Below, piece after piece: positions 2,228 through 36,975 of a stretch of 64,000 nucleotides of DNA (the stretch's first letter is position 1; each line of letters starts with the position of its first letter). Position numbers and translations under genes: made by a program. Location of the stretch: contig CALEAD010000002.1 in assembly GCA_937943625.1 (NCBI GenBank), forward strand, positions 1 through 64,000, read 5' to 3'. The notes below the pieces were generated by a model that had not been told where the DNA came from, did not search any database, and saw only the letters and a list, made by a program, of their open reading frames with translations. The DNA comes from an uncultured Anaerolineae bacterium. GTDB taxonomy: Bacteria; Chloroflexota; Anaerolineae; Promineifilales; Promineifilaceae.

Positions 2228-2250
2228 CGTATTACGTCTCGCGTAATACG
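2228..2250. terminator. Hairpin after radical SAM gene
   Basis: CGTATTACG (2228-2236) pairs with CGTAATACG (2242-2250) across a 5-nt loop, about 60 nt after the stop codon. There is no clear U-tract, so termination is only plausible. Confidence 0.35.
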
Positions 2251-2447
2251 ATTTGGCTATGATTCGCTCCTTTCGTTGTAAAAATACGCAGAATTTGTTT
2301 GAAGGCGGCGATCCGCGTCAGTTCAGATCTTTCGAAAATGTTGCTATCCGTCGGTGCTATGACAGAGAGCTTTAACAGGAAACGGCCGTGATCTTTCCTA
2401 ACCTCTTCTTCAACCTTTTCCCCTTTTCGACCCCGGCGTTGCCAACC

Positions 2448-3350
2448 ATGCTCTCTCTTGCCCTGGGGAAAAACGCGGCGCGGTCGAACGGCTGGGGAAA
2501 GGGGAAATTTGCCTTCTTTTTCATACTCTTTTGGGCGCCGGCCCTGGCCTGCGCCATGCCCACCATCTCTGGCCAGCGCGGCACGCCCCTGCCCCTGCCC
2601 ACCGAACTGGCCACCACCCCCTTCCCGGAAGAAAGCCGGCCGGGAAATTGGGACGCCATCTTTATTTCGGTCTCCTCGGCGGCGGGAGCGCAGAACGGCC
2701 GTTGCCACAAGCTGCTGCGTTTTTACCCCGACGGGCTGCTGCTGTACAGCAACTTCGCCTGCTTCTCTGCCGGCGCCGACGCCGCCAGCCAGGCCGCAGA
2801 CGTGGCAGGCTGGTTCAGGCGGGAAAATGCCAGCGTAGCTCGTGGCGATTATGTCCTGGAGGGGCAGCGCCTCTGGCTGCGTGCTGTCATGCAGGACGCC
2901 GTCCACGAAACGGCCTATTTGCGCAGCCTGCAGGGGGAATACTGCAAAGGAGAAATGGTGCTGCAAGAACCGGGCATATTGACCTACACCGGTGCGCCCT
3001 CTGAGCTGACAGAACCGGTACAGGAATATACCTTGCTTAGTGGAAATGTGCCGCAGACGCTGACGCCTCCCTGCCACGTAGCCGGTTTTCGCTTCCTGTG
3101 GCGTTCTTACATTACCCTGGCAGGGGGCGAGGCCATCTACCGCATCCGGACGGCCGTTGGCGAGCGGTGCAGCCTGCGCTATGTGGGGCCAGATGGGACA
3201 CGCTGGCCGGCAGATGGGCCGGCAGTGATCCTGGCCGACGAGGAGGGGGTGTGCGCCTGGCTATGGCCGGTGGGGGACGTGCGCGGCCAGGGGGTAGTGA
3301 CGGTAGAGATAGACGCCATTCGCCAGGACTTTGCCATTCAGCTCAACTAA
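2448..3350 (+). CDS. Secreted hypothetical protein with C-terminal Ig-like domain
   Basis: About 300 residues from ATG 2448; a GTG at 2388 would add 20. A hydrophobic segment (FAFFFILFWAPALACA) after basic residues looks like a signal peptide, followed by a Pro/Thr-rich stretch, which suggests an extracellular protein. The last 70 residues (RIRTAVGERCSLRYVGPDG ... GVCAWLWPVGD) resemble the small beta-sandwich domain often found at the end of Chloroflexota surface proteins. No catalytic motif was seen. The opposite-strand frame (2232-3077) is judged a shadow. Start and function are uncertain. Confidence 0.6.
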   Translation: MLSLALGKNAARSNGWGKGKFAFFFILFWAPALACAMPTISGQRGTPLPLPTELATTPFPEESRPGNWDAIFISVSSAAGAQNGRCHKLLRFYPDGLLLYSNFACFSAGADAASQAADVAGWFRRENASVARGDYVLEGQRLWLRAVMQDAVHETAYLRSLQGEYCKGEMVLQEPGILTYTGAPSELTEPVQEYTLLSGNVPQTLTPPCHVAGFRFLWRSYITLAGGEAIYRIRTAVGERCSLRYVGPDGTRWPADGPAVILADEEGVCAWLWPVGDVRGQGVVTVEIDAIRQDFAIQLN

Positions 3351-5782: not shown

Positions 5783-6448
5783 ATGTCCTCTCTTCTTAGT
5801 GATGACGAGTTCAAGCAGATGGCCCGTTGGGCAATGATTGGCCGACTTACAGCCTCGCTTTTGCATGACATTAACAATCCAATTCAGGCAATTCGCGGCT
5901 CATTAAGCCTGGCATTGGAAGACCTGAACAATGCCGAAGCCCTGCAACTGTATCTTGACCTGGGAATCCACGAGTCGGACCGCATTATCGAGTTAATTGC
6001 GCGAGCGCGCTGTCTGTATAGCAGCTATGGTCAGACATATGCCTACCTCAACATCAATTATCTGTTACACGAGTTGAAAGCCCTGGCAACGAAAGAGTTG
6101 GCCAACAAGCACGTGCAACTAGATCTGCAGCTGGCCGAGGGGTTGCCACCCGTTTGGGCTGTTTTTGGTGAGTTGTCGCAGGCTTTCCTATACCCATTGC
6201 TTACCCTGAGTGATTTGATATCCGAGTGTGGTGGGGGGGGGCTGGCCTTGCGCTCTGTGGCTATGCCTGAAGCCGTTAAGGTGAGTTTTGCTACGGCCGT
6301 TTTCCCCCATCCACTCCCAAAGATACCCTTGCTCGTCTGTGACGACATTATCCACCACTATGGTGGGTACACGCACCAATCCTATCAGGCTGACCGGAGC
6401 CTGAATCTGCTAGACATTATTCTCCCTGTTTCTACCACAGCAAAATGA
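5783..6448 (+). CDS. Histidine kinase-like protein with degenerate ATPase domain
   Basis: 221 residues. An NtrB-class H-box is clear (H28 in LLHDINNPIQAI), followed by a dimerisation helix. The C-terminal part keeps only the outline of a HATPase: the N-box position reads GELSQAFLYPLLTL (Asn lost), no DxGxG motif exists, and only the terminal HYGG...LP signature remains. It should not bind ATP, so it may act as a phosphotransfer or dimerisation protein. A run of nine G lies at 6233-6241 in frame. It overlaps the next gene by ATGA, so it is translationally coupled to the regulator. It has no sensor domain. Confidence 0.7.
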   Translation: MSSLLSDDEFKQMARWAMIGRLTASLLHDINNPIQAIRGSLSLALEDLNNAEALQLYLDLGIHESDRIIELIARARCLYSSYGQTYAYLNINYLLHELKALATKELANKHVQLDLQLAEGLPPVWAVFGELSQAFLYPLLTLSDLISECGGGGLALRSVAMPEAVKVSFATAVFPHPLPKIPLLVCDDIIHHYGGYTHQSYQADRSLNLLDIILPVSTTAK

Positions 6449-7263
6449 TAGCCACTTCTCAACCTGCTTCTCCCCATAGTATCCTCATTGCTGATGATGA
6501 ACCGGGTGTTTGCCTGGTTTTGGAAAAAACGTTGCAACGGCAGGGCTATAAAGTAGAAACCGCTCTGAACGGCCAGACAGCCCTGCGTCTTTTGCGCCAA
6601 AATCGCTTTGACCTGATCCTGTTAGACTTAAACTTAGGAGACATGAGCGGCCTGGCGGTGCTAAAAGTGGCGCGTCAGCAAGATGAAGACGCGGTCGTGA
6701 TTATTCTGACCGGTCATGGTTCCTTGCAAAGCGCCGTAGAAGCGCTGCGCCTGGGCGCTTTCGATTATCTTTTTAAACCCGCACTATCGGAGACCATTTG
6801 CCAACGGGTAAGCCAGGGGCTGGCGCAACGCCAACAAGCGTTGCAGCGCCGGCAGATTCTCAACCAGATTGAGACGTTGCGGCAAATGCTGGACCAACTG
6901 GCTACCCCCTCAGGGGCTGCGGCGCCGGCAATACAAAACGGCCGTTTTTTGCGCAGCGGCCCAGTAGTCATTGATCGCCACCATCACGTGGCAACCTACA
7001 ACAACACCCTACTTGACCTGACCAGTGCTGAATTTGATCTGCTCGTTTGTCTAATCGAAGCCGCACCAGAGCCAATATCACCTCGTCAACTACTTCAGTG
7101 TGCCCTCAATTACTGGGGTGATGAGCAGGAAGCAAGTGAAACAATCAAGTGGTACATTCATCACCTGCGCCGCAAAATAGAGCCGGAACCAAAAACCCCC
7201 ACGCATATCAAAACCATTCGTCACAAGGGCTACCTTTGGGTGAGCGAGCCGCCTGAACGCTAA
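6445..7263 (+). CDS. Response regulator, REC plus OmpR/PhoB winged helix
   Basis: 272 residues. N-terminal receiver with acidic pair DDE, phosphoacceptor D61 (LLDLNLGDMSG) and the conserved Lys in FKPA. A coiled linker (about 125-165) follows, then a C-terminal winged helix (EFDLLVCLIEAAPEPISPRQLL ... WYIHHLRRKIEP ... IRHKGYLW) typical of OmpR/PhoB DNA-binding domains. It overlaps the degenerate kinase gene by 4 nt, so the two are probably partners. It is a likely DNA-binding regulator of this locus or of distant targets. Confidence 0.9.
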   Translation: MIATSQPASPHSILIADDEPGVCLVLEKTLQRQGYKVETALNGQTALRLLRQNRFDLILLDLNLGDMSGLAVLKVARQQDEDAVVIILTGHGSLQSAVEALRLGAFDYLFKPALSETICQRVSQGLAQRQQALQRRQILNQIETLRQMLDQLATPSGAAAPAIQNGRFLRSGPVVIDRHHHVATYNNTLLDLTSAEFDLLVCLIEAAPEPISPRQLLQCALNYWGDEQEASETIKWYIHHLRRKIEPEPKTPTHIKTIRHKGYLWVSEPPER

Positions 7264-7508
7264 GCTCCTCCTCCTCCTCACCACACCGCGCGTTAGCCTG
7301 TTAGTTTGCAAACAGCCTCCCCCACGTGCCAGGTAAAGAAAGGTAGGGGGAGCAGTGGATAACGGCCGTAACCAGCCAGCCCCTCATTGACCCAACAGGA
7401 CTATTTTCCCCCCCCGCGCCAACCCAATCCAACCTTCTTCAACCTTTATCAACCTAAGCTGCGCCCCACTTTTGCTAAGATCAGCCATGACACAAGGAGC
7501 AAAGGGGC
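7264..7508. promoter_or_regulatory. Leader region before REC-roadblock operon
   Basis: 245 bp without a gene. It contains one ACGGCCGT (about 7361) and pyrimidine-rich AACCTTCTTCAACCTTTATC repeats. The downstream operon has CAAGGAGCAAAGGGG before ATG 7509. No promoter could be fixed. Confidence 0.3.
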
Positions 7509-8594
7509 ATGAAAAAACGAATTCTGATCGTTGATGATGAAGAATCGGTACTGCTTGTGCTAAAAAATAGCCTGATCAAGCTAGGCGACACCTATCAGGT
7601 AAACACAGCCAATAGCGCCTTTAAGGCCCTGGAACAGGTGCAGGCACAGCCGTTTGACCTGGTGATAACCGATTACAAAATGCCCGAAATGGATGGCTTA
7701 CAACTCATGGAAGCAATCCGCATGATTCAGCCACAGGCGCGGCTGATCATGATGACAGCCTACGGCACCGAGAAGCTGGAACAGAAAGTCAGCCAGTTAA
7801 AGGCATATCGCTACTTAACCAAGCCGCTAGAAATCAACGCCTTTCGCCAGATTGTCAAAGAGGCGCTCACCGCTGATGATGTCGCCATCAGCCGACCAGG
7901 TATTTTAGTGTTATCTGACGCCCGTTACCGTCAGGTAGTCAACCTGCTGCAAGAATTGCAGGTGAACGTGGGAAGCCGCTGCATCATCCTGACCGATGCC
8001 AACGGGCAAATGATAGCCTATAGTGGGGAAGTGAGTGGTTTACCCCTTGAGCAAATTGCTTCCTTGTTGTGTGGGGGCATGGCCACATTACAGGCAGCCG
8101 GCAGCGCTCTGGATGGGGATGAAGAGGCCATTCACCTCTCCTACCGCGAAGGAAAGCGCGACAATTTGTACGTGGTCAACATTGGCGCACAGCTTTTGTT
8201 GATCCTCATCCTCGAAGCCAAATCCTACAGCAGCCGCCTGGGGTCTGTCTGGTACTATGCGCGGCAAACGGCCGTTACCCTGCGGCAAACCCTCGGCGAA
8301 GCCGATTACGCCACCGCACCGCAAATTTTCACCGGCCAGGGCGTAGAAGCCTTAGAAGATGAACTGGATAAGCTGTTTGAGGATAGCAGCCCTACAACCA
8401 GAAACGGCGATGCCGAAATCGTCGCGCCTGCGCCATCATCTGTCCTGGCCAAAACCACAGTCCGGCAAACAATTTCACCTCCCAGGCAGCCAGAAAGCAG
8501 TGCCAGTTCAGGTAAACCTATCAGCTTTCAAGAAGCAATCATGCGCGGGCTAATCGCTCCAGACCTTTACCCAAGTAAAGAGGCAGGCAAATAA
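7509..8594 (+). CDS. Receiver domain fused to roadblock/LC7-like domain
   Basis: 361 residues. The receiver has DDEE, phosphoacceptor D55 (VITDYKMPEMDG) and TKPLE. After residue about 130 a roadblock/LC7-type fold follows (CIILTDANGQMIAYSGEVSGLPLEQIASLLCGGMAT ... LYVVNIGAQLLLILIL). A low-complexity Ser/Pro tail ends with a short conserved-looking helix. Roadblock domains bind and regulate MglA-type GTPases, so this gene would link aspartate phosphorylation to the GTPase two genes downstream. It is followed after one base by another roadblock gene. Confidence 0.8.
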   Translation: MKKRILIVDDEESVLLVLKNSLIKLGDTYQVNTANSAFKALEQVQAQPFDLVITDYKMPEMDGLQLMEAIRMIQPQARLIMMTAYGTEKLEQKVSQLKAYRYLTKPLEINAFRQIVKEALTADDVAISRPGILVLSDARYRQVVNLLQELQVNVGSRCIILTDANGQMIAYSGEVSGLPLEQIASLLCGGMATLQAAGSALDGDEEAIHLSYREGKRDNLYVVNIGAQLLLILILEAKSYSSRLGSVWYYARQTAVTLRQTLGEADYATAPQIFTGQGVEALEDELDKLFEDSSPTTRNGDAEIVAPAPSSVLAKTTVRQTISPPRQPESSASSGKPISFQEAIMRGLIAPDLYPSKEAGK

Positions 8595-8595
8595 C

Positions 8596-9132
8596 ATGGA
8601 CACACACCTGAACCAAGAAACCTACCGACTCCGTTGCGGCGTTGCCGTGTATGCCGAGCAACACAAAGCGTTTGAGCAACTGCTTACCGAGGCGCTCACG
8701 CAAATTCCGGCTAACTTTGTCTTTCTCGCTGACGTGGCCGGCCAAGTTATCCTGGCGAAAGGAGAGCATAAGGCAGTCAATCTGGTCATGCTCGGCTCTC
8801 TGGTTGCCGGGGATCTGGCTGCCAGTCAAGAAATTGCGCGGCTGACCAGCCAGTTTCAGGATTACCAGATTGTGCTGCGCGAAGGAGCGAATGTAAACAC
8901 CTTTATTACCGAAGCAGGGCAATACCTGGTTTTGTTGGTACAGGTAGATCACGACATTCCCCTGGGCTGGGCGCGCATGATTGTCAAACAAGTGGGTCAA
9001 CGGCTGGGACAGGTGATGGAAGGCACAGAAACGGCCGTTGGCCAACAGCCAACCCTGACCTTCGGCCACAGCGACAGCAATCTTTCCGAACTATTTGATG
9101 AAGCGTTAGATGATTTGTGGGGGGAAACATAA
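8596..9132 (+). CDS. Roadblock/LC7-like protein
   Basis: 178 residues. The core NFVFLADVAGQVILAKGEH ... LVAGDLAASQEIARL ... YLVLLVQVDHDIPLGWARMIV matches the roadblock/LC7 pattern of a DxxG hairpin, an Ala/Gly-rich helix and a final beta-strand pair. It starts one base after the REC-roadblock stop and ends two bases before the mglA-like start, so all three are co-translated. It is likely a GTPase-activating or exchange partner of the GTPase. The C-terminal tail is acidic (SELFDEALDDLWGE). Confidence 0.75.
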   Translation: MDTHLNQETYRLRCGVAVYAEQHKAFEQLLTEALTQIPANFVFLADVAGQVILAKGEHKAVNLVMLGSLVAGDLAASQEIARLTSQFQDYQIVLREGANVNTFITEAGQYLVLLVQVDHDIPLGWARMIVKQVGQRLGQVMEGTETAVGQQPTLTFGHSDSNLSELFDEALDDLWGET

Positions 9133-9134
9133 CC

Positions 9135-9722
9135 ATGCGTATCAACTGGCAATTGCGAATTCTCAATCTCAAAATTGTCTACTACGGGCCGGCCCTGAGT
9201 GGCAAAACCACCAACCTGGAACAGATCTACAAGTCCGTTGACCCCCAACGGCGCAGCGATCTGGTCTCATTAAAAACCAACGAAGACCGTACCCTGTACT
9301 TCGACTTTCTGCAACTAGAGCTGGGCAAAATCTCTGGCCTGACCCCACAGATTCAGCTTTACACCGTCCCTGGGCAGGCCTACTACGAAGCCAGCCGGCG
9401 TATCGTCTTACGTGGGGCTGATGGCGTCGTGTTTGTGGCCGATTCTGACGTGCGGCAGATGCGCGCCAACGTCGAATCCTGGCAAAGTATGCACCAACAC
9501 CTGGCCTCCTTTGGCCCTTCTCAGGCGGCGCTTCCCATTGTGGTACAGTTCAACAAGCGCGATCTGCGCTCCGCAATGCCGGTTCCGATTATGTCCCAGC
9601 TGCTAAAGCTAAACGGGCACCCCTGCTTCGAGGCTGTGGCCATTTCCGGTCAGGGGGTTTTGCCAACGCTAAAAGCCATTACCAAAAGCGTCGTCTCACA
9701 AATCCAACGTGAATTAGCTTAA
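9135..9722 (+). CDS. MglA-like small Ras-family GTPase
   Basis: 195 residues. G1 P-loop GPALSGKTTN at residues 18-27, LKTNEDRTLYFDF around switch I, TVPGQAYYEASRRIVLRGADGVVFVADS at switch II and after, and the base-specificity motif NKRDL. These are the bacterial MglA hallmarks, including TVPGQ in place of the Ras DxxGQ. MglA proteins set cell polarity and motility in Myxococcus and relatives and are controlled by roadblock proteins such as MglB. Here three roadblock-containing genes flank it directly. ATG 9135 is preferred over upstream codons because it begins the conserved beta-strand. Confidence 0.93.
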   Translation: MRINWQLRILNLKIVYYGPALSGKTTNLEQIYKSVDPQRRSDLVSLKTNEDRTLYFDFLQLELGKISGLTPQIQLYTVPGQAYYEASRRIVLRGADGVVFVADSDVRQMRANVESWQSMHQHLASFGPSQAALPIVVQFNKRDLRSAMPVPIMSQLLKLNGHPCFEAVAISGQGVLPTLKAITKSVVSQIQRELA

Positions 9723-9747
9723 AGAAAAACCTGCGATAAGTGTAACT

Positions 9748-10143
9748 ATGAACGCGAATACAAAGCCAAAATCAGGTTCAGCAAAGTTAGCCGAATTACT
9801 AGCGGAGATGAATGAAGCGGGTAACTTCCCCATTTCCATTCTTACAGACCGACAGGGCTTTCCAATTGCCTCAGCGGCGCAGCCAGGGCAAGACCCAGAT
9901 GTCCAGGCCGCCGTCGTTGCGCTGGTGCAAAAAACAGCCGCCCAGGTTCATCAACAGCTTGGTATGGCCAAAACCGACGAAATCTCGCTCTACGACGCCG
10001 AAGGGCAACGACTTATCTGCCGCCCTTTTGAAGCAAATGGCCATGACATGATCCTGGCAGTTCGCGTTCCTGACCGTCACCAAACCTACCGTCGTCTTAC
10101 CACCCGCACCATCAACCGCGTGCGCAGCATATGGAAGCTATAA
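9748..10143 (+). CDS. Roadblock/LC7 domain protein
   Basis: 131 residues, essentially one roadblock/LC7 domain: ISILTDRQGFPIASAAQPGQDPDVQAAVVALVQKTAAQVHQQL ... ISLYDAEGQRLICRPFE ... DMILAVRVP. It lies 25 nt after the GTPase gene. Stand-alone roadblock proteins of this kind (MglB-like) act as dimeric regulators of MglA. An intergenic repeat separates it from the PATAN-roadblock gene. Confidence 0.85.
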   Translation: MNANTKPKSGSAKLAELLAEMNEAGNFPISILTDRQGFPIASAAQPGQDPDVQAAVVALVQKTAAQVHQQLGMAKTDEISLYDAEGQRLICRPFEANGHDMILAVRVPDRHQTYRRLTTRTINRVRSIWKL

Positions 10144-10146
10144 GCA

Positions 10147-10240
10147 ACTGGACTCTGGCGTTTTTCCTGGCTGCCAGTGCAGCGCGATTTGACAAATCGC
10201 GTTACGACGCCAGAGGTCAATGTAATTTTCGCCAGACTCC
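10147..10240. repeat. Intergenic repeat, family B, copy 2
   Basis: Second copy of the element at 3353-3465, about 75% alike by eye. It includes GCTGCCAGTG-AGCGCGATTT and TTTCGCCAGACTCCAG. It is joined directly to a family C hairpin. Confidence 0.7.
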
Positions 10241-10245
10241 AGTTT

Positions 10246-10295
10246 GTAGTAACCGCTTCTGCAGGTAACCGACCAAAGCCGTTACTACGAACCTC
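10246..10295. repeat. Family C hairpin repeat (GTAGTAAC ... GTTACTAC)
   Basis: GTAGTAAC (10246-10253) pairs with GTTACTAC (10281-10288), followed by GAACCT. Similar arms with GTAGTG ... CACTACGAACC occur at 54325-54376, and a lone left arm occurs near 11088. Confidence 0.6.
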
Positions 10296-10346
10296 AAAAA
10301 GTTAGTTTGTTGCAGTATCGGGCTACATGTACAAAGGAGAACACTC

Positions 10347-11075
10347 ATGGCACTCCAGGGCAATTTACGCGATATGTCCGTCGCCGATCTTATTCAACAA
10401 TTTGGTCAGGACGGCAAAACAGCACGGCTAACTATCCAACACAATGGGGATGAAGCCATTCTCTATTTCCAGCAAGGCAAAGTCGCCCACGCTATTTGGC
10501 GAAACATGCGTGGTGAAGAGGTCGTTTACCGCACCCTACGGTGGCAAGATGGAACTTTTAGCCTGGAGATGGAAATAGAACCACCCGACGTAACCATCCA
10601 GCGCAGCTGGTCACAACTATTGTTAGAGGGCGCCCGGCGCCTGGATGAAGAAACTATTGAAATTGAGGAAATTTTTGAAACAAAGGAGAACCCAACAATG
10701 GCAACCAAGAAAAAGAGCGATCTATTAGCAGAGGCCCTGACAAATATCCTGGCAGAATCGGCCGATATTGATGGGGTGGCTATCGTCGGCGTAGACGGTC
10801 TGGTCTATTCCGCAAATGTGCCCAACCGGGAAATGGATGAAGACATCGTTGGCGCGGCGGCGGCCGCCATCCTGGGGTTAAGCAAGCGCAGCACGCAACA
10901 ATTGAAGCGCGGCAGTTTTACCCGTACCCTCATCCAAGGGGAAGATGGCAACATCATTGTTGCCAGCCTGGATGACGAAACGCTATTTGTTGGCTTGACG
11001 CCGAAAAATGTGAACCTGGGCATGGCCTTTGCGGAAGTGCGTGACGTCGCCGCGCGCATTCGCCAAATTCTCTAA
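10347..11075 (+). CDS. PATAN (DUF4388)-roadblock fusion protein
   Basis: 242 residues in two parts. Residues 1-80 form a PATAN/DUF4388 domain (MALQGNLRDMSVADLIQQF ... YFQQGKVAHAIW). Residues 118-242 form a roadblock/LC7 domain (DIDGVAIVGVDGLVYSANVP ... IIVASLDDETLFVGL). Between them lies an internal ATG at 10698 preceded by ACAAAGGAGAAC, the same 12 bases as the RBS of the full-length start. The roadblock half is therefore probably also made alone (125 residues). PATAN proteins are common adaptors in two-component/GTPase networks. Likely a scaffold joining the relay to MglA. Confidence 0.82.
   Translation: MALQGNLRDMSVADLIQQFGQDGKTARLTIQHNGDEAILYFQQGKVAHAIWRNMRGEEVVYRTLRWQDGTFSLEMEIEPPDVTIQRSWSQLLLEGARRLDEETIEIEEIFETKENPTMATKKKSDLLAEALTNILAESADIDGVAIVGVDGLVYSANVPNREMDEDIVGAAAAAILGLSKRSTQQLKRGSFTRTLIQGEDGNIIVASLDDETLFVGLTPKNVNLGMAFAEVRDVAARIRQIL
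10680..10700 (+). promoter_or_regulatory. Internal ribosome-binding site and start inside PATAN-roadblock gene
   Basis: ACAAAGGAGAAC (10680-10691), then six bases, then in-frame ATG (10698-10700). The identical 12-mer occurs at 10331-10342 before the annotated start. This points to a second translation product or to a recent gene fusion. Confidence 0.6.
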
Positions 11076-11107
11076 AAGTAGTAACGACTAAGGCTTCTCT
11101 GGAAAAG

Positions 11108-11158
11108 TTTGTTGGTTGGTTAGTTTGATGGGTGGTTTCCGGCCCAACTAACCAACGG
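11108..11158. repeat. Family D hairpin (TTGGTTGGTTAG ... CTAACCAAC)
   Basis: GTTGGTTGGTTAGTTTG pairs with CCAACTAACCAAC around GGTGGTTTCCGG. The same style of element lies at 24002-24072 and 42369-42450. It falls between the PATAN-roadblock and V4R-like genes. Confidence 0.6.
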
Positions 11159-11231
11159 CCTGGTGGTTACAAACAGTATCGTAATTCAGCAACAGTCACT
11201 ATCAGTAAATAAAATATAAGGAGCTATTAAA

Positions 11232-11705
11232 ATGGCATCAGAAGAAGTCAAACGAGCAAATCAGTATCGGCTAGCAACAATGGCCCTGACAAGCCTGGCT
11301 GCCGGCGTGTGGGATACCCTGGGCGATTCTGCTTTTGCCTTTAGTGGGCAAATGGGGCGGCAGGTTTTGGGTATCATGGAAAAAGAGATGGGGCTGGAAA
11401 TAGCCGGCGAAGAACCAGAGGATGTGCTGAGTGAAATCAGCCGTATCTTTGTGGATGAGTTTGGCTTTGCCAGCGACATTAGCGTGGAGCGGAAGTCACC
11501 AGAATTGCTCGAGTTGAAGGTGCATAACTGTATTAACCGGCACTATACGGATGAGCTGGCTGCCGTGGGGGTGGAAAAGCCGTTTATCTGCCCCATTATG
11601 AATGCCACCCAGGCTGCCCTGCGCCGTATGGACATTAAAGCGAGTGTGGATGTGCGCAAGTGGCCTGAAGGGAATGGCTCAATTATTACCTTCAAGAGCC
11701 GCTAA
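11232..11705 (+). CDS. V4R / methanogen-output-domain-like sensor protein
   Basis: 157 residues, single domain. It has an N-terminal helical stretch (NQYRLATMALTSLAAGVWDTLGDSAFAFSGQMGRQVL), then the pattern LKVHNCINRHYTDEL ... EKPFICPIMNATQAALRRM ... SIITFKSR. Two Cys in HNC and FICP recall the V4R (4-vinyl reductase) and MetOD1 families, which bind small ligands or metals in archaeal and Chloroflexota regulators. It has its own RBS (AAGGAG) and follows a 150-bp repeat-filled gap. It is probably a ligand-sensing component of the roadblock/MglA module; exact family moderate. Confidence 0.55.
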   Translation: MASEEVKRANQYRLATMALTSLAAGVWDTLGDSAFAFSGQMGRQVLGIMEKEMGLEIAGEEPEDVLSEISRIFVDEFGFASDISVERKSPELLELKVHNCINRHYTDELAAVGVEKPFICPIMNATQAALRRMDIKASVDVRKWPEGNGSIITFKSR

Positions 11706-11757
11706 CCGGTATGTTTTTGCCTGAGCCGTACTCGTTAAAAACCAGTTTTGGGAACCG

Positions 11758-11796
11758 ATTCCCCAGAAACGGCCGTTTTCACCGTTTCTGGGGAAT
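11758..11796 (+). terminator. Strong 15-bp hairpin between V4R-like gene and amidoligase
   Basis: ATTCCCCAGAAACGG (11758-11772) pairs perfectly with CCGTTTCTGGGGAAT (11782-11796) across a 9-nt loop, followed by CATTTTTC. The left arm and loop contain ACGGCCGT. It may end the upstream transcript or attenuate transcription into the amidoligase gene, whose ATG is at 11817. Confidence 0.6.
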
Positions 11797-11816
11797 CATT
11801 TTTCATCTGCGTAGCC

Positions 11817-13109
11817 ATGAAGGACCCTATTATCTTCGGTCGTCAGGACGTTCTCACGCCGACAGATGCCGGGTACTGGAAAGACCTGCTTTACCGCACC
11901 GTCAAAATCGGCACGGAAATAGAAGTTGCTCCGCCCAAGGGAGCGCACCATGCTGCGTTTGCGGCCAGTGTTAGCCAGGCGTTGCAACCTTCTGGCAGCC
12001 TGATGCGGCTGGGGGCTAATGGGGTGTTGGATGTGCAAAAAGAGCATTGCGGCATCGAGATTCGCATTATCGGCCGTTACCCCCACTATCGCGCCCTCTG
12101 GCAGCAATATAGCCAGATTGTGGCTGTGCTGCATAGCCACGGCAGCCGTGTGCGCCCCACCTGTGGCCTGCACTACCATCTGCTCACTCCAGACCTGTCT
12201 GAACCCGTGCCGGAAATTATTCTGGCCAACCTGTGGAACCTGACGCGGCGCTATGCGCCGGAGCTGCGCTTTCTTACCAGCGCCGGTGAGTCGCGTGAGG
12301 CGCTTTGCCGTCGGCGCAACTATACCAGTCACCTGGAAATGGTGAAGCACTCCCCGGGCAGCCTGAGTATGGCACAAATTCAGCAAAAATTGCGCAGCAG
12401 TCAGATCGTGCCGGAACATCAGAACTTCTTTAACCTGGAGCACGTGGGCTTTACAGAAAGCGGCGCGGTACTGCCTTTTCACCTGGAATATCGTTTCCCT
12501 GACGCCGAGATGTGCCCAACATCGTTGACGGCAAAGACGTTTTTGTTTCTGGTAATGCTACTGAAAGCAGTGGACCTGAGTCAGTATGGTGTGATTCATG
12601 TGGGCAAGGTTAAACCGTGGCGCCGCAAAATTGAATTGTTGGATATGTTGAGTAATAATGAGGGTAACCTGGCCACGAGCAACACAACGGCCGTTACAAA
12701 TGAGATCATTGAAGAACTGCGCCAGGGCGCCTATGAGCTGCTAGACCTGCTTGCGCCAACGTTCGACCGCTTTGAAGACAACCCTGCGCTCGATGTGTTG
12801 CTGCTGCTGGCAGAACAACCCATTTCTTTGCGCCGTTGCGCGGGCTATGACTGGCTCCAGATTGAGCGGCAATTGCGTGAGTGCGTGGCGCTGGATGAAG
12901 TTGGGTTAGATAAGACAGACCAACAATTAATGCGGTGGATCGAATTGGCGGAATGGACCGGTGAACAGAATGCCGAAAGCTGGCAATGGCACGCAGCCCA
13001 TGAGTTATTCCTGACGCCACAGGATTTGGAGCGCCGTTTAGCAAAGTTGGAAAAATTGCGCGGCTTGCGTTGGGATGGGCGTCTGGGCACAATGGTATTT
13101 ACTAAATAG
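11817..13109 (+). CDS. Amidoligase-family (COOH-NH2 ligase) enzyme
   Basis: 430 residues. It carries the marks of the glutamine-synthetase-fold amidoligases: GTEIEVAPP near residue 32 (acidic residues for Mg-ATP), CGIEIRI, CGLHYHL near 116, NYTSHLE, and LEYRFPDAEMC. Family members use ATP to join a carboxylate to an amine. The substrate cannot be read here. The adjacent class II glutamine amidotransferase (12 nt downstream) suggests an acting pair. The roughly 100-residue C-terminal helical extension is not in the core family. ATG 11817 is chosen because the hairpin occupies the region upstream. Confidence 0.78.
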   Translation: MKDPIIFGRQDVLTPTDAGYWKDLLYRTVKIGTEIEVAPPKGAHHAAFAASVSQALQPSGSLMRLGANGVLDVQKEHCGIEIRIIGRYPHYRALWQQYSQIVAVLHSHGSRVRPTCGLHYHLLTPDLSEPVPEIILANLWNLTRRYAPELRFLTSAGESREALCRRRNYTSHLEMVKHSPGSLSMAQIQQKLRSSQIVPEHQNFFNLEHVGFTESGAVLPFHLEYRFPDAEMCPTSLTAKTFLFLVMLLKAVDLSQYGVIHVGKVKPWRRKIELLDMLSNNEGNLATSNTTAVTNEIIEELRQGAYELLDLLAPTFDRFEDNPALDVLLLLAEQPISLRRCAGYDWLQIERQLRECVALDEVGLDKTDQQLMRWIELAEWTGEQNAESWQWHAAHELFLTPQDLERRLAKLEKLRGLRWDGRLGTMVFTK

Positions 13110-13121
13110 AACAGCCCTGGC

Positions 13122-13913
13122 ATGTGCGGCATTGCAGCTACCCTTCTCACACCTCAGGCACGCTCAGAATCGGAGTGGCAGGCCATTCGCGAAAATTTTA
13201 CAGCAAATTTGCTGTTTAATCAGTCACGCGGAGCGGCTGCGACCGGCCTGGTTGTGCTACAAGCAGATGGGCAGGTGCATTTGTGGAAGCAGCCGTTACC
13301 GGCACAGGCGTTTGTACAAACGGCCGTTTACCGTCAATTGCTCAGCAGCGTCGGTGCGCAAACCACCCTCTTGCTTGGTCACACCCGCCTTCCGACCAAG
13401 GGGGAGCCAACAAATAATGGGAACAACCACCCCATTCAGGTTGGTACCGTTTACGGCGTGCACAATGGCCACATTCACAACGATGATCAGCTATTTACCC
13501 AGGCAAACCGCCACCGCCTGGCCGAGGTAGACAGCGAGATCATCTTCCGCCTGATCGCAGAGACTGAAGGAGAGCCCACCCAAATGAAACTGGCTCTGGC
13601 AGAACTACAAGGAGAGTTTACTTTTTTGGCCGCCAATAGCCGTTGCCCAACCAGGCTCCTGGTTGTCAAACACCGCAACCCCCTTTCCCTCCACTACCAG
13701 GCCAGCTGGCAAGCCCTCATCTTCACTTCGCGCTACCTGTTTTTGCGCAAGCAATTTGGCCATGGCGTTTCAGGCGAAACAATCCTTCCAGATCATTTGT
13801 TGGTTTACGACGCGCAGCAACTGCCCGTGCGGCAACATCAGCCCATTGTAGCCCTGCCTCTTGATCTCAAGCAGGCAAAAAAGCAGAGCTACCCCAATCC
13901 TCTCATTTCCTAG
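13122..13913 (+). CDS. Class II glutamine amidotransferase (Ntn hydrolase)
   Basis: 263 residues. It starts MCGI, placing the catalytic Cys at position 2 after Met removal, with GHTRLPTKGEPTNNGNNHP and HNGHIHN, the hallmark of GATase II proteins. There is no fused synthetase domain, so it would hydrolyse glutamine or a gamma-glutamyl amide for a partner. The upstream amidoligase is the obvious candidate. Stand-alone GATase II proteins (YafJ-like) are known beside amidoligases in other genomes. It is followed after 10 nt by a REC gene, so it is in the same operon. Confidence 0.85.
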   Translation: MCGIAATLLTPQARSESEWQAIRENFTANLLFNQSRGAAATGLVVLQADGQVHLWKQPLPAQAFVQTAVYRQLLSSVGAQTTLLLGHTRLPTKGEPTNNGNNHPIQVGTVYGVHNGHIHNDDQLFTQANRHRLAEVDSEIIFRLIAETEGEPTQMKLALAELQGEFTFLAANSRCPTRLLVVKHRNPLSLHYQASWQALIFTSRYLFLRKQFGHGVSGETILPDHLLVYDAQQLPVRQHQPIVALPLDLKQAKKQSYPNPLIS

Positions 13914-13923
13914 AGCCGGCAAT

Positions 13924-14676
13924 ATGGCGACAGAAACGATTCTGGTAGTAGATGACAATGTCGAGCTATTAGACCTGCTCGAAAAACAGGTTCTCAAGCG
14001 ATTAGGGTACCAGGCCAAGTGTGCCCTGGATGGCGTCCAGGGGCTAGAAATGGCGCAACAAATCAAGCCAGACCTGATTATGCTTGACATGAACCTGCCG
14101 CGCATGTCTGGTATGACTGTGTTAAAAGCTTTGCGCAAACACAACATCAATGTTCCCGTTATCTTTATGACCGGTGAAGGCTCGGAGTATGTGGCTATTC
14201 AGGCGTTTCGCCTGGGCGTGTTTGATTACCTGCCCAAACCATTCTCGGTGAGCATGCTAGAAGAGACGCTCAACCGCGCGCTGCAAACGGCACGCCTGGC
14301 CAGAGAAAGAGAACAGCTTACACAATCGCTCGTCGCAGCCGAAGCCGTGCGCCAGACGGTTACCACGCTGGCTCACTACATCAATAACCAGTTGCTGGTT
14401 GCGAACGGGGGACTTGAGCTGTGCCAGGAACTGCTGTGCGACCCTGGCGCCATTGACCGGGACGCAATGCTGCAAATTTTGGCCCACAGCCAGCAAAGTG
14501 TGCGCCAGATCGAAGCGGTGTTGCGCGTGCTGAATCGCTTGACAAATGTAGAACTAACCACGTACCATGATACAATCTCGTTACTAGATATCGAAACGGC
14601 CGTACAGGCAGAGTTTAGCCTCCTGGCTGATTCACCCGGCAACGCGCAAACGACTAGTGGCAATGAACGGACCTAA
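13924..14676 (+). CDS. Receiver plus DHp (HisKA-like) protein lacking ATPase
   Basis: 250 residues. Receiver with DDN, phosphoacceptor D55 (MLDMNLPRMSG) and PKPF. A helical segment with H-box-like LAHYINNQLL (H151) follows, then a second helix, and it stops before any HATPase domain. This resembles a histidine phosphotransfer module built from a kinase DHp domain, with Gln in place of the usual Pro after NN. It overlaps the hybrid kinase gene by 14 nt. It probably passes phosphate between the hybrid kinase and the regulators. Confidence 0.72.
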   Translation: MATETILVVDDNVELLDLLEKQVLKRLGYQAKCALDGVQGLEMAQQIKPDLIMLDMNLPRMSGMTVLKALRKHNINVPVIFMTGEGSEYVAIQAFRLGVFDYLPKPFSVSMLEETLNRALQTARLAREREQLTQSLVAAEAVRQTVTTLAHYINNQLLVANGGLELCQELLCDPGAIDRDAMLQILAHSQQSVRQIEAVLRVLNRLTNVELTTYHDTISLLDIETAVQAEFSLLADSPGNAQTTSGNERT

Positions 14677-17587
14677 CTTCCTGGCAACATCGCTAAATAT
14701 TCTCGCCATTGGCACGGAAACAGCGGATTGGTTAACCACACTGGCCTATCTGCGTGAAGAAGGGCATCAGGTAACGGCTGTTACCACAGAACTACACGGC
14801 CGTTTCCATTTCCAGTCTAATCCGCCAGACTTAATCCTGCTCGGTCAGCTACCAGAGCGTGACACCCTGTTGGCTTTCTTGCGCGCCTCCACGCAAGATA
14901 GTGACCTGCTCATCCTGGCGCTGGCCAGCCCCGATGAGGTAAATGAGCTGCTAGAACAGTTTGATGAAGTCATCGAAACGCCCGTTACCCGCACCAAAGT
15001 GCGTCGGCGCCTGCAAACGGCCGTGCGCCTGCGTGAAGCCAATGAGCGGTATCACGCAACCGAATGCTCCTGGCTAGATACATTGGCCAACCTTCAAGAA
15101 TATGAGCAGTCCTTGCGCCAGCAATGGCAGCTCAGCCAGGCCTTGCAAAAAACACATACCCTGGCGGAAGTAGTGGATGTTTGTTTGACGGCCGTTCTTG
15201 ACCTCACGCAGATGGAAACGGCCGTGCTCCACCTCACCCAGTCAGGCACAATCAATCCAAAGACACAAACCTACCGTCAAACGCGCCCCGCTGCGGCGCA
15301 GCCCCCTCCCACCCAGGCCTGGCCCACGCCCAACACCCCCCTGCCCGATGCCTCAGCCGCCGTCAACCAGATAGAAATACCGCTACGCCACCACGAAACC
15401 CCCATCGGACACATCAACCTCAACTCCGCCAGAGCCGTCGTTCTGCCCCGGCAGATCACAACCATCCTGGAAGCGGTCAGCCAACAAATCAGCCATGCCC
15501 TCATTCAGGTAGAAACAGAAGAAAAGCTAAACCAATTTTACCGCATCGTAGAACAATCTCCCGTCTCCATCGTCATTACCGACCTTGACGGGCACATTGA
15601 ATACGTCAACCCAAAATTTACCGCGATTACCGGCTACACCCTGGCAGAAGCTATTGGCCGCAAGCCCTCCATTCTCAAATCAGGTTACACCTCACAAGAA
15701 ACCTATCAATTGCTCTGGCAAACCGTTCTGGCAGGGCAAGAGTGGCGCGGGGAGTTTCTCAACGTCAAAAAAGGTGGCTCTTATTTTTGGGAATCTGCCC
15801 TGATCACATCGCTCAAAAACAGGCATGGGCAAATCACTCAGTTATTAGGCATCAAGGAAGACATCACCACGCGAAAGAAGCTGCAACTAGAGCTAGAGCA
15901 GCACTACCAGGAATTGCGCACACTTAACCAGGCAATCCAGGTTATTACAGCCAGTTTAGACCTTAACACCGTGCTAGACACCATCCTGGCACAGCTTACC
16001 GCCATGTTGCCTAGCTCTTCTTGCGCCATCTGGCTGCGTGATCAAGAAACCGGGCAACTCACCTGTCAGCGCGCCGCCGGTTCCCTGAAACCTTATTTGC
16101 CGCCTCAATGGCTCGACGCCGCTTCAGAAGCACCTCCTCAGGTGGCCAAAGAAAGCCTGGTCATTGACGATCTTCTACTTAACAACTATGATGACCCTGT
16201 TGCCCAGGCAGAACAGGCACAACCTCGTTCCCTGACCATTATTCCCATAATTTTGGAACAACAAACCCTCGGCGCACTGCAATTGCTTGATGAGAGAGCC
16301 AACCACTTTGATCCGCACACAATAACCATGATTGAAGCAATCGCGGCAACATCGGCCACGGCAATTGAAAATGCCCGCCTGCACGAAACCCTGCAAACAC
16401 AATATGAAAACCTGAAGCAGGCGCGACTCCGCGCCCTGCAAAGTGAAAAACTGGCCATTCTGGGTGAGATCATAGCCGGTGTAGCCCATGAACTCAATAA
16501 CCCGCTGGCAGCCGTTGTGCTCTACTCACAAATTTTGCTTCGCAAGCATGCGCCGGTCGAGCTGCAAGAGGATCTACAAAAAATTATTACCCAGGCCAAA
16601 CGCGCCAGCAAAATTGTGCGCGGCTTACTCGAGTTTTCACGCCAGCGGCCCCCAGAACGCAAGGAAACTTCCATCAATGATCTGGTCTTGCAAAGTCTGC
16701 AATTACTGGCCTATGATTTGCGCACGCACAACGTAACCGTATTTACGCAACTTTCGCCAGATATTCCGCTTATTTGGGCAGACTCGCACCAGTTGCAACA
16801 GCTTATCATTAATCTGATCAATAATGCCGCTCAGGCAATCGTAGAAACAAAACAGAACGGTTATCTTACCATCACAACCAAGGTAAAAGCTGCCTCTCAA
16901 GAGGATGATGCTCCTGGTGCGCCGGTTGTTCGCCTAACCTTTCAAGATAATGGTCCGGGCATTCCAGAATCCATTCAATCACGTATCTTTGAACCTTTCT
17001 TTACCACAAAGGCGGAAGGGCTGGGAACGGGACTCGGCTTATCCCTGTGCCAGAAAATCGTCACAGAACATGGGGGAAAAATTTGGTTCGAAAGCCAGCC
17101 TGGCCAGGGTGCCACTTTTTTTGTTGAGCTGCCTATAATTGCAGCAGAGAACACGGCCGTTACCACATCTACCGCCCAACCAGACAGTGAGCTTAGCCAC
17201 GCGAACAACAAGAACCGCATTCTGATTGTTGATGATGAACCGAACCTGGTTCAGGTAATTGCGCGCGTATTGCTTCGCCAGAACTATCGCGTAGAAATGG
17301 CCTTCAGCGGCCAGGAAGCCCTGGAAAAGGTAAAACAACAAGCGTTCAACCTGATTCTTTGTGACTTGCGCATGCCCGATACCAACGGCTTTCAACTCTA
17401 TGAAAGTTTATTAGAGCAGTCGCCTGATGCTAAACAAAAAATCATTTTCATGACCGGGGACATCGTAAATAGAAATACTTTACACTTTCTCCAGGAGCAT
17501 AATCTGCGCTATCTGACCAAACCTTTCGAGGTAGAGGATTTGCTCCATCTTGTGGCAACGACAGTCAGCCGCCAGCCCGCTAGTTGA
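14663..17587 (+). CDS. Hybrid sensor histidine kinase (pseudo-REC, GAF, PAS, GAF, HisKA, HATPase, REC)
   Basis: 974 residues, no membrane segment. Order: degenerate receiver-like domain (about 10-130, no acidic pair), coiled coil, GAF-like (160-285), PAS (295-410, FYRIVEQSPVSIVITDLDGHIEYVN), GAF (430-585), HisKA with H609 (GVAHELNNPLAAV), complete HATPase (NLINNAAQA, DNGPGIP, GTGLGLSL) and a C-terminal receiver with D901. It is the only protein of the locus with an intact ATPase, so it is the expected phosphate source. ATG 14663 is used; a GTG six bases earlier is possible. It overlaps the REC-DHp gene, giving coupled translation. Confidence 0.9.
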   Translation: MNGPNFLATSLNILAIGTETADWLTTLAYLREEGHQVTAVTTELHGRFHFQSNPPDLILLGQLPERDTLLAFLRASTQDSDLLILALASPDEVNELLEQFDEVIETPVTRTKVRRRLQTAVRLREANERYHATECSWLDTLANLQEYEQSLRQQWQLSQALQKTHTLAEVVDVCLTAVLDLTQMETAVLHLTQSGTINPKTQTYRQTRPAAAQPPPTQAWPTPNTPLPDASAAVNQIEIPLRHHETPIGHINLNSARAVVLPRQITTILEAVSQQISHALIQVETEEKLNQFYRIVEQSPVSIVITDLDGHIEYVNPKFTAITGYTLAEAIGRKPSILKSGYTSQETYQLLWQTVLAGQEWRGEFLNVKKGGSYFWESALITSLKNRHGQITQLLGIKEDITTRKKLQLELEQHYQELRTLNQAIQVITASLDLNTVLDTILAQLTAMLPSSSCAIWLRDQETGQLTCQRAAGSLKPYLPPQWLDAASEAPPQVAKESLVIDDLLLNNYDDPVAQAEQAQPRSLTIIPIILEQQTLGALQLLDERANHFDPHTITMIEAIAATSATAIENARLHETLQTQYENLKQARLRALQSEKLAILGEIIAGVAHELNNPLAAVVLYSQILLRKHAPVELQEDLQKIITQAKRASKIVRGLLEFSRQRPPERKETSINDLVLQSLQLLAYDLRTHNVTVFTQLSPDIPLIWADSHQLQQLIINLINNAAQAIVETKQNGYLTITTKVKAASQEDDAPGAPVVRLTFQDNGPGIPESIQSRIFEPFFTTKAEGLGTGLGLSLCQKIVTEHGGKIWFESQPGQGATFFVELPIIAAENTAVTTSTAQPDSELSHANNKNRILIVDDEPNLVQVIARVLLRQNYRVEMAFSGQEALEKVKQQAFNLILCDLRMPDTNGFQLYESLLEQSPDAKQKIIFMTGDIVNRNTLHFLQEHNLRYLTKPFEVEDLLHLVATTVSRQPAS

Positions 17588-34979: not shown

Positions 34980-35498
34980 CTATCCCATGTCAAAGAAGAA
35001 GTGTACCAGCAAATCTCCAAATAATACTTCATCCCCGTTTGTAAGCAAGTAGGGCTGGTGAGCCATCAACCGGTAATTATTGAGGTAAGTACCGTTGGTG
35101 CTGTCCAGGTCAATCAGTGCCACCCCCTGGGAGGTTAACTGCAACATGGCGTGCAGCCGCGAGACCCCGTGAGCGGCGGCATCGAAAGGGGAAAGGTCCA
35201 TTTCAGGGGTCGTGTCGGGGTCGTCTGTAGCGCGCCCGATGCGAATTTCTTGCCTCAATTCTAGCTGGAGACGTCTGCGGCTGCCAGGAATAAACGCGAT
35301 AATCGGCTTGCCAGAAACAGCAGGTGGCAGTTTGGTACCCTCCTCAATCATAGGTGGGGGGGGAGGCAAACGGCCGTGTTGCACAAACGGTAGTTGCGAC
35401 GTATTAACCGCCGCTGTCTGGATCAAAAAACAGCCACATTCGGTACAAAAAAGCGTGCCCTCATATTGCGAGGCGCCACATTCAGGGCATTTAATCAT
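34980..35498 (-). CDS. Zinc-ribbon plus FHA-domain protein
   Basis: 172 residues. N-terminal zinc ribbon CPECG ... CTECG (about residues 4-25), a Pro-rich linker (LPPPPPMI), and a C-terminal FHA domain (IRIGRATDDPDTTPEMDLSPFDAAAHGVSRLHAML ... LIDLDSTNGTYLN). FHA domains bind phosphothreonine. The neighbouring Ser/Thr kinase and PP2C phosphatase suggest a phospho-dependent complex. Its ATG overlaps the stop of the J-vWA gene by 8 nt. Confidence 0.85.
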   Translation of the reverse strand: MIKCPECGASQYEGTLFCTECGCFLIQTAAVNTSQLPFVQHGRLPPPPPMIEEGTKLPPAVSGKPIIAFIPGSRRRLQLELRQEIRIGRATDDPDTTPEMDLSPFDAAAHGVSRLHAMLQLTSQGVALIDLDSTNGTYLNNYRLMAHQPYLLTNGDEVLFGDLLVHFFFDMG

Positions 35499-36975
35499 TA
35501 AAAAGATCCTCGGGGTCACTTAACATAAGGGCCATTGTTTGACTGAGCAATGTGCGCGTGCCAAACTTTAATGCCTTGCGCCCCTCCCCAGATAGGTCTT
35601 GTAGGCTGGCCAGACGCTCCGCTTCCACCTGCGCCTGATGAGCCAGTTTGGTCTGTCCTAACTCAAAAAAGCGCGTACTCAGGTGCTGCATGCGTCGCGT
35701 CGCCATCTCTACGTTACCGCGTTCTATGTCTTCCCACACTTTCTCATTCAGACGATACATGCTCAACATGCGTACTGCTTTCAAGAGTGCCTCTGGTGGT
35801 TCCTCTGGTAGCGGGTTGGCCAAAACGAACAAGGAGAGGTCTTGCTTAAAGGTTTGCGGCGTGTTGCCCATGGCAGGAATTTCCGCGCTCAAGTTCACCG
35901 GAAGGGTGATGCGATTTTCTACCAGTTGTGGTTCTAAACCAAGCTCAAGCAGAAAAGAAAGTGGCCGACGACCTTCGATGTTACCCAGTTTGATCTCTCT
36001 GGCATCTATGGCAAGGGGCTGGGCATAGGGGGTCATCTTGAAGCCGTAGCGGACAAAGATGCTTTCGGGAAAGTTGAGCAGCAGGCGGATATCCTGAGCA
36101 TAAATAGAGCCTAACCCTTTAATACAACCGTCGAGATGTTTGATAATCTCTTCTGGCTGGTCTATATAGCCAGACCGTCCCCCAGAAGGGGTAACCAGGC
36201 GATCCAGGAATTGATCGTTCCATTCGTGGCCAATGCCAAAAGCAGTAATGCCGATGCCCTGGGCGGCCGTTTCTCTGGCAAGCTGCAAGCACAACCCTTC
36301 GTCCCCATACGTGTGGCCATCAGTCAAGAGGATGAGGTGGTTCAGGTAGCGACTGAGGGGTAAGCGGCGCATCTCCGCTACGCCAGCTTGCAAGCCCTGG
36401 TAGATTTCTGTGCCGCCAGAGGTCCTCATCCCTTTCACGCGCGCTAATATGCGGCTTTTTTCCTGCACTGTCCCTGCGGGAACCAGCACCTGAGCGCGGT
36501 CGCTAAAGCCCACAATGGAGATCACGTCATCTGGACCTAGTTTGTCCAATACCTTTTCTACAGCCTCCTGTACGCGATTCAGGCGCGCGCCGCGCATAGA
36601 AGTGCTGTGGTCCAGTACCAGGCATAAATTGAGCGGTAGGTGGGCATCCTCTTGCTGTTGCGGTGGGCGTACTTCCACCATCAGGTAAAGAACCTGGGGT
36701 GTTTTCATCAGCCCCACCCTGGTGCGGCTAAGCATGGCGTTCAGGCTTAAAGCGGACGTAGAAGATGTCTCTTGCAGCAACGAATCGTACAAAGCGCGCC
36801 GGCTCGGATCGCTAAGCACTTCGTAAGCGTAGGACAGCTGCTGCAAAGAAACGCCAGCCGCCCCCCCTTTTTGCTGCGCCAACCGCAGCCTGGCAAACGC
36901 CCGGTGAATCTCTTCCGCCGAGGCGTCTGTCTTTACCCCCAGAAGGGCGTAGTAATCGGGCGGCTCACCACTCAT
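35491..36975 (-). CDS. J-like domain plus von Willebrand factor A protein
   Basis: 494 residues. The first 70 form a DnaJ-like helical domain (DYYALLGVKTDASAEEIHRAF ... LSYAYEVLSDPSRRALYDSLL), but the HPD signature is replaced by LAQQKGG, so Hsp70 stimulation is unlikely. Residues 115-300 form a vWA domain with intact MIDAS D122-H-S124-T-S126 (LVLDHSTSMRGARL). The rest is a beta-sandwich and helical tail. In the same operon as FHA, PP2C and kinase genes; it probably binds metal-dependently to a partner. Confidence 0.85.
   Translation of the reverse strand: MSGEPPDYYALLGVKTDASAEEIHRAFARLRLAQQKGGAAGVSLQQLSYAYEVLSDPSRRALYDSLLQETSSTSALSLNAMLSRTRVGLMKTPQVLYLMVEVRPPQQQEDAHLPLNLCLVLDHSTSMRGARLNRVQEAVEKVLDKLGPDDVISIVGFSDRAQVLVPAGTVQEKSRILARVKGMRTSGGTEIYQGLQAGVAEMRRLPLSRYLNHLILLTDGHTYGDEGLCLQLARETAAQGIGITAFGIGHEWNDQFLDRLVTPSGGRSGYIDQPEEIIKHLDGCIKGLGSIYAQDIRLLLNFPESIFVRYGFKMTPYAQPLAIDAREIKLGNIEGRRPLSFLLELGLEPQLVENRITLPVNLSAEIPAMGNTPQTFKQDLSLFVLANPLPEEPPEALLKAVRMLSMYRLNEKVWEDIERGNVEMATRRMQHLSTRFFELGQTKLAHQAQVEAERLASLQDLSGEGRKALKFGTRTLLSQTMALMLSDPEDLFND

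Follow-up and report, generated by a model that had tools for sequence, protein, structure and literature searches.

Within a 64,000-nucleotide stretch of DNA from an uncultured Anaerolineae bacterium of the Chloroflexota (contig CALEAD010000002.1; hereafter the window), twelve consecutive genes on the + strand, lettered A to L in their order, bring together a phosphorelay, an MglA small GTPase with several roadblock-domain proteins, a putative sensor, an amidoligase and a class II glutamine amidotransferase (Table 1). An earlier note, made from the letters of the window, had listed these genes in this order at 5783-17587, and all 12 open reading frames (ORFs) were confirmed, with likelier start codons at 9135 for E, 11817 for I and 13924 for K. 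The short gaps and overlaps it described hold within three tight blocks, A-B, C-F and I-L, where A/B overlap by 4 bp and K/L by 20 bp and the gaps measure 1 bp (C-D), 2 bp (D-E), 25 bp (E-F), 12 bp (I-J) and 10 bp (J-K), but not at three gaps of more than 150 bp (B-C, 245 bp; F-G, 203 bp; G-H, 156 bp), which could offer room for promoters. Together with the H-I gap of 111 bp, four junctions exceed 100 bp and a single transcript is thus not required; promoter and terminator scans of the locus gave no clear transcript boundary.

Table 1. Genes of the window locus (A to L) and associated genes in related loci (L-numbers denote related loci; positions in these loci follow the colon)
Feature	Position	Strand	Evidence
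A, HisKA (DHp) protein without recognisable ATPase domain	5783..6448	+	HisKA E 2e-8; HATPase unmatched
B, response regulator, REC and winged-helix DNA-binding	6445..7263	+	PF00072 E 8e-29; PF00486 E 6e-17
C, REC-roadblock protein	7509..8594	+	PF00072 E 9e-26; weak Robl_LC7 E 9e-4; kept in MglA loci
D, MglB-like roadblock protein	8596..9132	+	weak roadblock; NCBIfam MglB E 8e-12, under cut-off
E, MglA small GTPase	9135..9722	+	family profile vs MglA structures E 7e-81; motifs
F, single-domain roadblock protein	9748..10143	+	Robl_LC7 E 0.0056, under Pfam cut-off; kept beside MglA
G, PATAN (DUF4388)-roadblock adaptor	10347..11075	+	PF14332 E 7e-24; Robl_LC7 E 2e-12
H, V4R-like putative sensor	11232..11705	+	alignment; hhalign to V4R; position upstream of I
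I, glutamine-synthetase-fold amidoligase, new family (modelled)	11817..13109	+	AF2; Foldseek; invariant active-site residues
J, stand-alone class II glutamine amidotransferase (glutaminase)	13122..13913	+	GATase_6 E 7e-17, over cut-off
K, REC and DHp-like protein	13924..14676	+	PF00072 E 6e-27; DHp part by eye from translation
L, hybrid histidine kinase (PAS, GAF, HisKA, HATPase, REC)	14657..17587	+	domain search
Beta-carbonic anhydrase between H and I	L063:9212-9802, L067:9347-9943, L071:5372-5998, L082:2862-3500		
Beta-carbonic anhydrase between I and J	L046:11327-11914		
Cam-type gamma-carbonic anhydrase between H and I	L069:1810-2427		E ~1e-74 to Cam structures
Cam-type gamma-carbonic anhydrase just after H at contig end	L191:289-897		
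Genes replacing H in its slot (PhnD-like, protoglobin in two loci, ODP)	L185:10633-11364, L186:5603-6148, L187:11079-11612, L201:7905-8663		

Scanning GTDB contigs with a family alignment of amidoligase I, we obtained 47 loci from Chloroflexota, Cyanobacteria, Desulfobacterota, Acidobacteriota, KSB1/Caldithrix, WOR-3, Coatesbacteria and others; the cassette and its adaptor gene recur together in about nine bacterial groups. Because the 48 loci compared were found by I alone, the neighbours that recur beside it provide an independent test of linkage, and they recur far beyond chance. H lies no more than 1.5 kb upstream of I in 40 of 42 loci, a PATAN/roadblock gene like G no more than 3.5 kb upstream in 33 of 34, and J no more than 1 kb downstream in 34 of 39, and the G-H-I-J order is kept across phyla even though the I proteins are only ~50% identical. 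The smallest version, in Desulfococcaceae HSG9 (L072), is a four-gene operon of a REC-PATAN-roadblock fusion gene, H, I and J with no kinase or DNA-binding regulator adjoining. MglA, counted only where 4.5 kb or more of sequence upstream was available, accompanies I in 19 of 32 loci: in all 17 from Chloroflexota, and in 2 of 15 from other phyla (L065 and L074). Among genomes of the class, I and MglA share 11 of the 14 that bear I where 1.9 would be expected (hypergeometric p 2e-8), and I and H share 12 against 0.6 expected. J (rho 0.82), G (rho 0.65) and MglA (rho 0.60) also co-diverge with I. The earlier note had tied the amidoligase to MglA and named their separation in related genomes as grounds for giving the link up; the tie stands in Chloroflexota and is absent from the 13 remaining loci of other phyla. 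The near-constant partner of H-I-J is therefore the PATAN-roadblock adaptor G, not MglA, and the locus falls into two modules joined together, a sensory switch of roadblock proteins and MglA, and the enzyme cassette H-I-J.

For the enzyme at the centre of this cassette, neither Pfam nor NCBIfam offers a model of its own, leaving the system invisible to standard annotation. Amidoligase_2 (PF12224) is touched by 5 of 41 relatives of I, at a best E of 0.019, and the window protein gives no match to it at the curated cut-off. An AlphaFold2 (AF2) model with a pLDDT of 91.6, built from 39 sequences that include a distant Desulfobacterota protein (L237; 10 close sequences gave pLDDT 52), adopts the glutamine-synthetase (GS)/YbdK/PafA/Dop fold. 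Its top Foldseek matches are YbdK, Dop, GS, PafA and GCS (E 1e-6 to 1e-4, prob 1.00), at low TM-scores of ~0.3-0.55 that make the fold class safe and the nearest function not; phage amidoligases are matched as well. Residues G32, E34, E36, E76, E81, H119/H121 and E224/R226 are invariant in 41 sequences, and the motifs comprise a metal-binding GxExE, a second acidic cluster, CGLHxH and a C-terminal E-x-R. The L237 protein, found by the I profile at E 6e-45 and carrying GVELE, DGSL and RCSTHMH as read by eye, bridges I to the canonical motifs. As modelled, I is a new family of the GS-like amidoligase superfamily and not a member of PF12224. In the phage-like stretch around the bridging gene (L237:3122-9851), two PF14395 COOH-NH2 ligases stand beside the distant I-like amidoligase.

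Within the class, 14 of 298 genomes encode an I protein, most of these being 60-73% identical; PF12224 was also sought in 100 genomes of the class without a match, but the controls gave no signal either. In the tree of I, cyanobacterial proteins nest within a mainly Chloroflexota clade (99/96 support), and the I proteins of two Deltaproteobacteria metagenome-assembled genomes (MAGs) are close to that of one Chloroflexota MAG. These placements fit horizontal transfer, and the latter may be a MAG binning error. The locus has a G+C content of 0.50-0.54 against 0.52-0.63 elsewhere in the window, which we did not take to prove that it was transferred recently, since values almost as low are found in other stretches of the window.

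Downstream, J has the Cys after the start Met and the R, N-G and D motifs of a class II glutamine amidotransferase, with Cys2, R89, N101, H103, N115-G116 and D137-S-E139 invariant in 37 sequences. Upstream, H has no Pfam or NCBIfam match, including to the V4R profile (PF02830); an hhalign comparison of its superfamily with V4R (prob 69, E 4.5e-5, 122 columns) indicates a moderate likeness. Cys100 and Cys120 are invariant in the H alignment, and a MATEExKK N-terminus is near-invariant. We considered that I might modify H through this N-terminus and set the idea aside, because the N-terminus is also retained in H proteins that have no I next to them.

A clue to the role of H comes from MglA loci that lack I: in two of them a protoglobin follows G, others have a PhnD-like or an ODP diiron protein there, and in some a PAS-type kinase comes next. 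Protoglobin and ODP are gas-binding folds. We infer from these occupants of its slot that H is a sensor, and gene order indicates that MglA systems have an exchangeable sensor slot after the PATAN-roadblock gene. Four loci hold an extra protein of ~140-200 aa between H and I (L041:9549-10004, L043:9528-10004, L060:7097-7690, L061:5472-5900), whose profile weakly matches Tlr1989 (PDB 8h17, E 8e-5), with RsbR and a globin-coupled kinase at noise level; it is perhaps a divergent globin-like sensor. In other genomes of the class, a distant H-like family (L129, L130, L132, L136, L140) sits, by eye, in an operon between a nitroreductase-like gene and genes for two CoA-transferase-like subunits, a context that may help find the ligand of H.

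Seven loci have a carbonic anhydrase gene inside the cassette or at its edge, and the enzymes belong to two unrelated folds (five beta, two gamma). The intervals from H to J, 127 kb in sum, contain six of them, whereas the ~791 kb of further DNA examined contain one, that of L191 (Fisher p 4e-5); ~0.13 would be expected in the intervals on the assumption that a 4 Mb genome carries 4 such genes. The arrival of two unrelated folds at the same place argues for a common need for CO2 or bicarbonate, as a substrate of I or as the sensed compound.

In the switch module, the kinase that the earlier note called ATPase-dead (A) does match HisKA without HATPase, as does a GAF-GAF-HisKA homologue in related loci. 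From their domains, A is a probable phosphotransfer protein, K a probable phosphorelay intermediate and D a probable GAP/GEF (GTPase-activating or nucleotide-exchange) partner of MglA. The MglA protein E retains its P-loop, TVPGQ with the G3 Gln, and NKRD (NKxD) motifs, has invariant residues in the family alignment and stands beside its MglB-like partner D, and three more proteins, C, F and G, carry roadblock domains. Its own genome encodes only two T2SSE ATPases, of 443-469 aa, and a search of it found no longer PilB/PilT-like ATPase, so that a classical type IVa pilus role for this MglA is not supported. At least ten MglA-roadblock loci lack H-I-J, and C-D-E-F-G with similar kinases occur in Chloroflexota without the cassette. 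In the tree of MglA, proteins with and without a linked I are intermixed, forcing at least four switches; the cassette has thus been gained or lost repeatedly. The notion that Cyanobacteria lack the GTPase part proved wrong: in Leptolyngbya, a roadblock gene, a different Ras-like GTPase (PF03029/Roc/Ras matches) and a separate PATAN gene precede H-I-J (L044:6706-8684).

We suggest, with a confidence only slightly above even, that the locus encodes a sensor-gated, glutamine-dependent C-N ligase acting on a carboxylate, possibly bicarbonate. The switch module would comprise the phosphorelay (A, B, K and L), the REC-roadblock protein C, the D/E MglB-like/MglA pair, roadblock F and adaptor G, through which the H-I-J cassette would be attached. 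H and the kinases would sense a cytosolic condition; in response, the roadblock/PATAN adaptor would change in its phosphorylation and dimerisation, and in Chloroflexota MglA would shift its nucleotide state too, adding a further layer. Adaptor G would then license I and J. J would hydrolyse glutamine to ammonia and pass it to I, which, at the expense of ATP, would convert a carboxylate to its acyl phosphate and then form an amide. Because carbonic anhydrases recur beside I, our best current guesses are bicarbonate, from which carbamate would form, or an input linked to CO2. A bolder version, which we think unlikely, holds that H-I-J pairs a bicarbonate-activating GS-fold ligase with a class II glutaminase as a multi-phylum, independent counterpart of carbamoyl phosphate synthetase, switched by PATAN-roadblock and, in Chloroflexota, by MglA; a dedicated beta- or gamma-carbonic anhydrase would supply its bicarbonate in some lineages.

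Several observations weigh against the gated-ligase reading. H barely co-diverges with I (rho 0.13) and occurs without an adjacent I in four genomes (G181, G012, G274, G285), and Coleofasciculus has an orphan I. J is missing though I is intact in L058, L079 and the cultured strain Longilinea arvoryzae KOME-1, where the locus is compact and the whole genome holds class II glutamine amidotransferases only of a longer kind; glutamine use is hence not universal, and I may also accept free ammonia or an amine. Carbonic anhydrases occur in only 7 of ~50 loci, and other small genes (globin-like, Cys-rich) also lie between H and I, so the anhydrases may serve sensing rather than catalysis.

In a rival reading, H-I-J would be an enzymatic sensor of glutamine, ammonia or bicarbonate on the input side of the roadblock/MglA switch, with B and L as the real outputs. 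It sits where other MglA loci hold the pure sensors described above, and a carbonic anhydrase and a glutaminase would suit carbon/nitrogen sensing. We nonetheless find this doubtful, since a ligase that spends ATP and conserves its whole active site would be an unusual sensor and the minimal operon L072 has no DNA-binding regulator or kinase beside it. The model of the earlier note, in which the phosphorelay sets the state of MglA, which in turn localises the amidoligase or permits it to act in modifying the cell surface or a protein, is partly borne out: it gains from the linkage of MglA in every Chloroflexota locus counted, from the co-divergence of MglA with I and from the resemblance of I to the protein-modifying ligases PafA and Dop. 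We rate it rather improbable: the constant partners are G and H, MglA is unlinked in 13 loci of other phyla including the four-gene operon, MglA often occurs in loci that lack I, the cassette has no conserved surface gene, and PafA/Dop, YbdK and GS are all matched only at low TM-scores, which does not single out a protein substrate. That enzyme pair and GTPase system are just co-transcribed or co-inherited neighbours without interaction appears very unlikely to us. Both parts do occur apart, Coleofasciculus carries an orphan I, and the gaps F-G, G-H and H-I are wide; random adjacency would, however, give neither the cross-phylum gene order at such low identity nor the interleaving of I-linked and I-free MglAs.

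Elsewhere in the window, a Ser/Thr protein kinase with a PQQ/BamB-type beta-propeller is encoded at 38140-40113 (-), with a VWA-domain protein nearby at 35491-36975 (-), and the interval 2232-3350 ahead of the NurA gene holds no convincing gene, its ORFs overlapping on both strands.

Polarity and development are the main processes in which MglA-roadblock systems are known to act as switches. An ordered, multi-phylum enzyme cassette on a roadblock adaptor would give the MglA GTPase family a testable biochemical output, and the bicarbonate version, if true, would place a bacterial metabolic enzyme under Ras-like GTPase/roadblock control. The roadblock-sensor-enzyme layout invites comparison with the roadblock complexes that control eukaryotic small GTPases. 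The recurrent carbonic anhydrases are a concrete lead to the substrate or signal. Longilinea arvoryzae KOME-1 is a possible starting organism.

Carbamoyl phosphate synthetase combines a glutaminase with ATP-dependent activation of bicarbonate. It would be a functional analogue of the cassette if the carboxylate is bicarbonate, but its folds are unrelated to the GS-like ligase and class II glutamine amidotransferase found here. Gene pairs of an amidoligase and a class II glutamine amidotransferase are known from phages (PMC3890496, PMC10580990). Like the cassette, these clusters (LUZ24, phiEco32-like; PF12224, PF14395, class II glutamine amidotransferase, ATP-grasp) place a GS-fold amidoligase gene before a class II glutaminase gene, and by eye the order of active-site motifs is that of I. 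In sequence, the similarity of I to PF12224 does not rise above noise (best E 0.019), and hhalign against phage PF12224 proteins (prob 0.1 and 11) was not usable. Moreover, ATP-grasp and PF14395 ligases accompany the phage pairs, and no protein annotated as roadblock, PATAN or GTPase appears in the phage loci that were read; for the cassette here it is the reverse. We set aside a phage or plasmid origin of I, which has no relative on the viral contigs of IMG/VR or in PLSDB, and likewise a role in anti-phage defence, PADLOC giving no match for H, I, J, E or G and one for C only through REC.

On the switch side, MglA is known with roadblock genes and sometimes with PATAN genes nearby (PMC4316618). 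The locus shares with Group 1-type MglA/MglB polarity systems, such as that of Myxococcus xanthus, an MglA orthologue and a linked MglB-like roadblock protein, and differs in its additional roadblock proteins C, F and G, its own phosphorelay and enzyme cassette, and a genome in which no PilB/PilT-like ATPase was found. In actinobacterial conservons (CvnA-D), a single operon encodes a kinase, a roadblock protein and a small GTPase that work together in signalling (PMC4316618; PMC13343842). The same three are found together here, but with an MglA-type GTPase bearing TVPGQ, response regulators and the amidoligase-glutaminase cassette, and none of the 12 locus proteins matches the CvnC type (DUF742). 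In HGbRL of Methylacidiphilum, a globin sensor is proposed to act on a roadblock domain (PMC4476040), recalling the protoglobin and globin-like genes at or beside the H position in related loci; there, in contrast, the globin is fused to the roadblock domain and neither amidoligase nor glutamine amidotransferase is present. The union of an amidoligase-glutaminase pair with an MglA-roadblock system is not described in the literature searched, which did not extend to papers behind subscription, among them the 2009 survey of amidoligases (Iyer et al.). Each half is known separately from the systems compared here, and their union looks like a real, undescribed sensor-controlled pathway.

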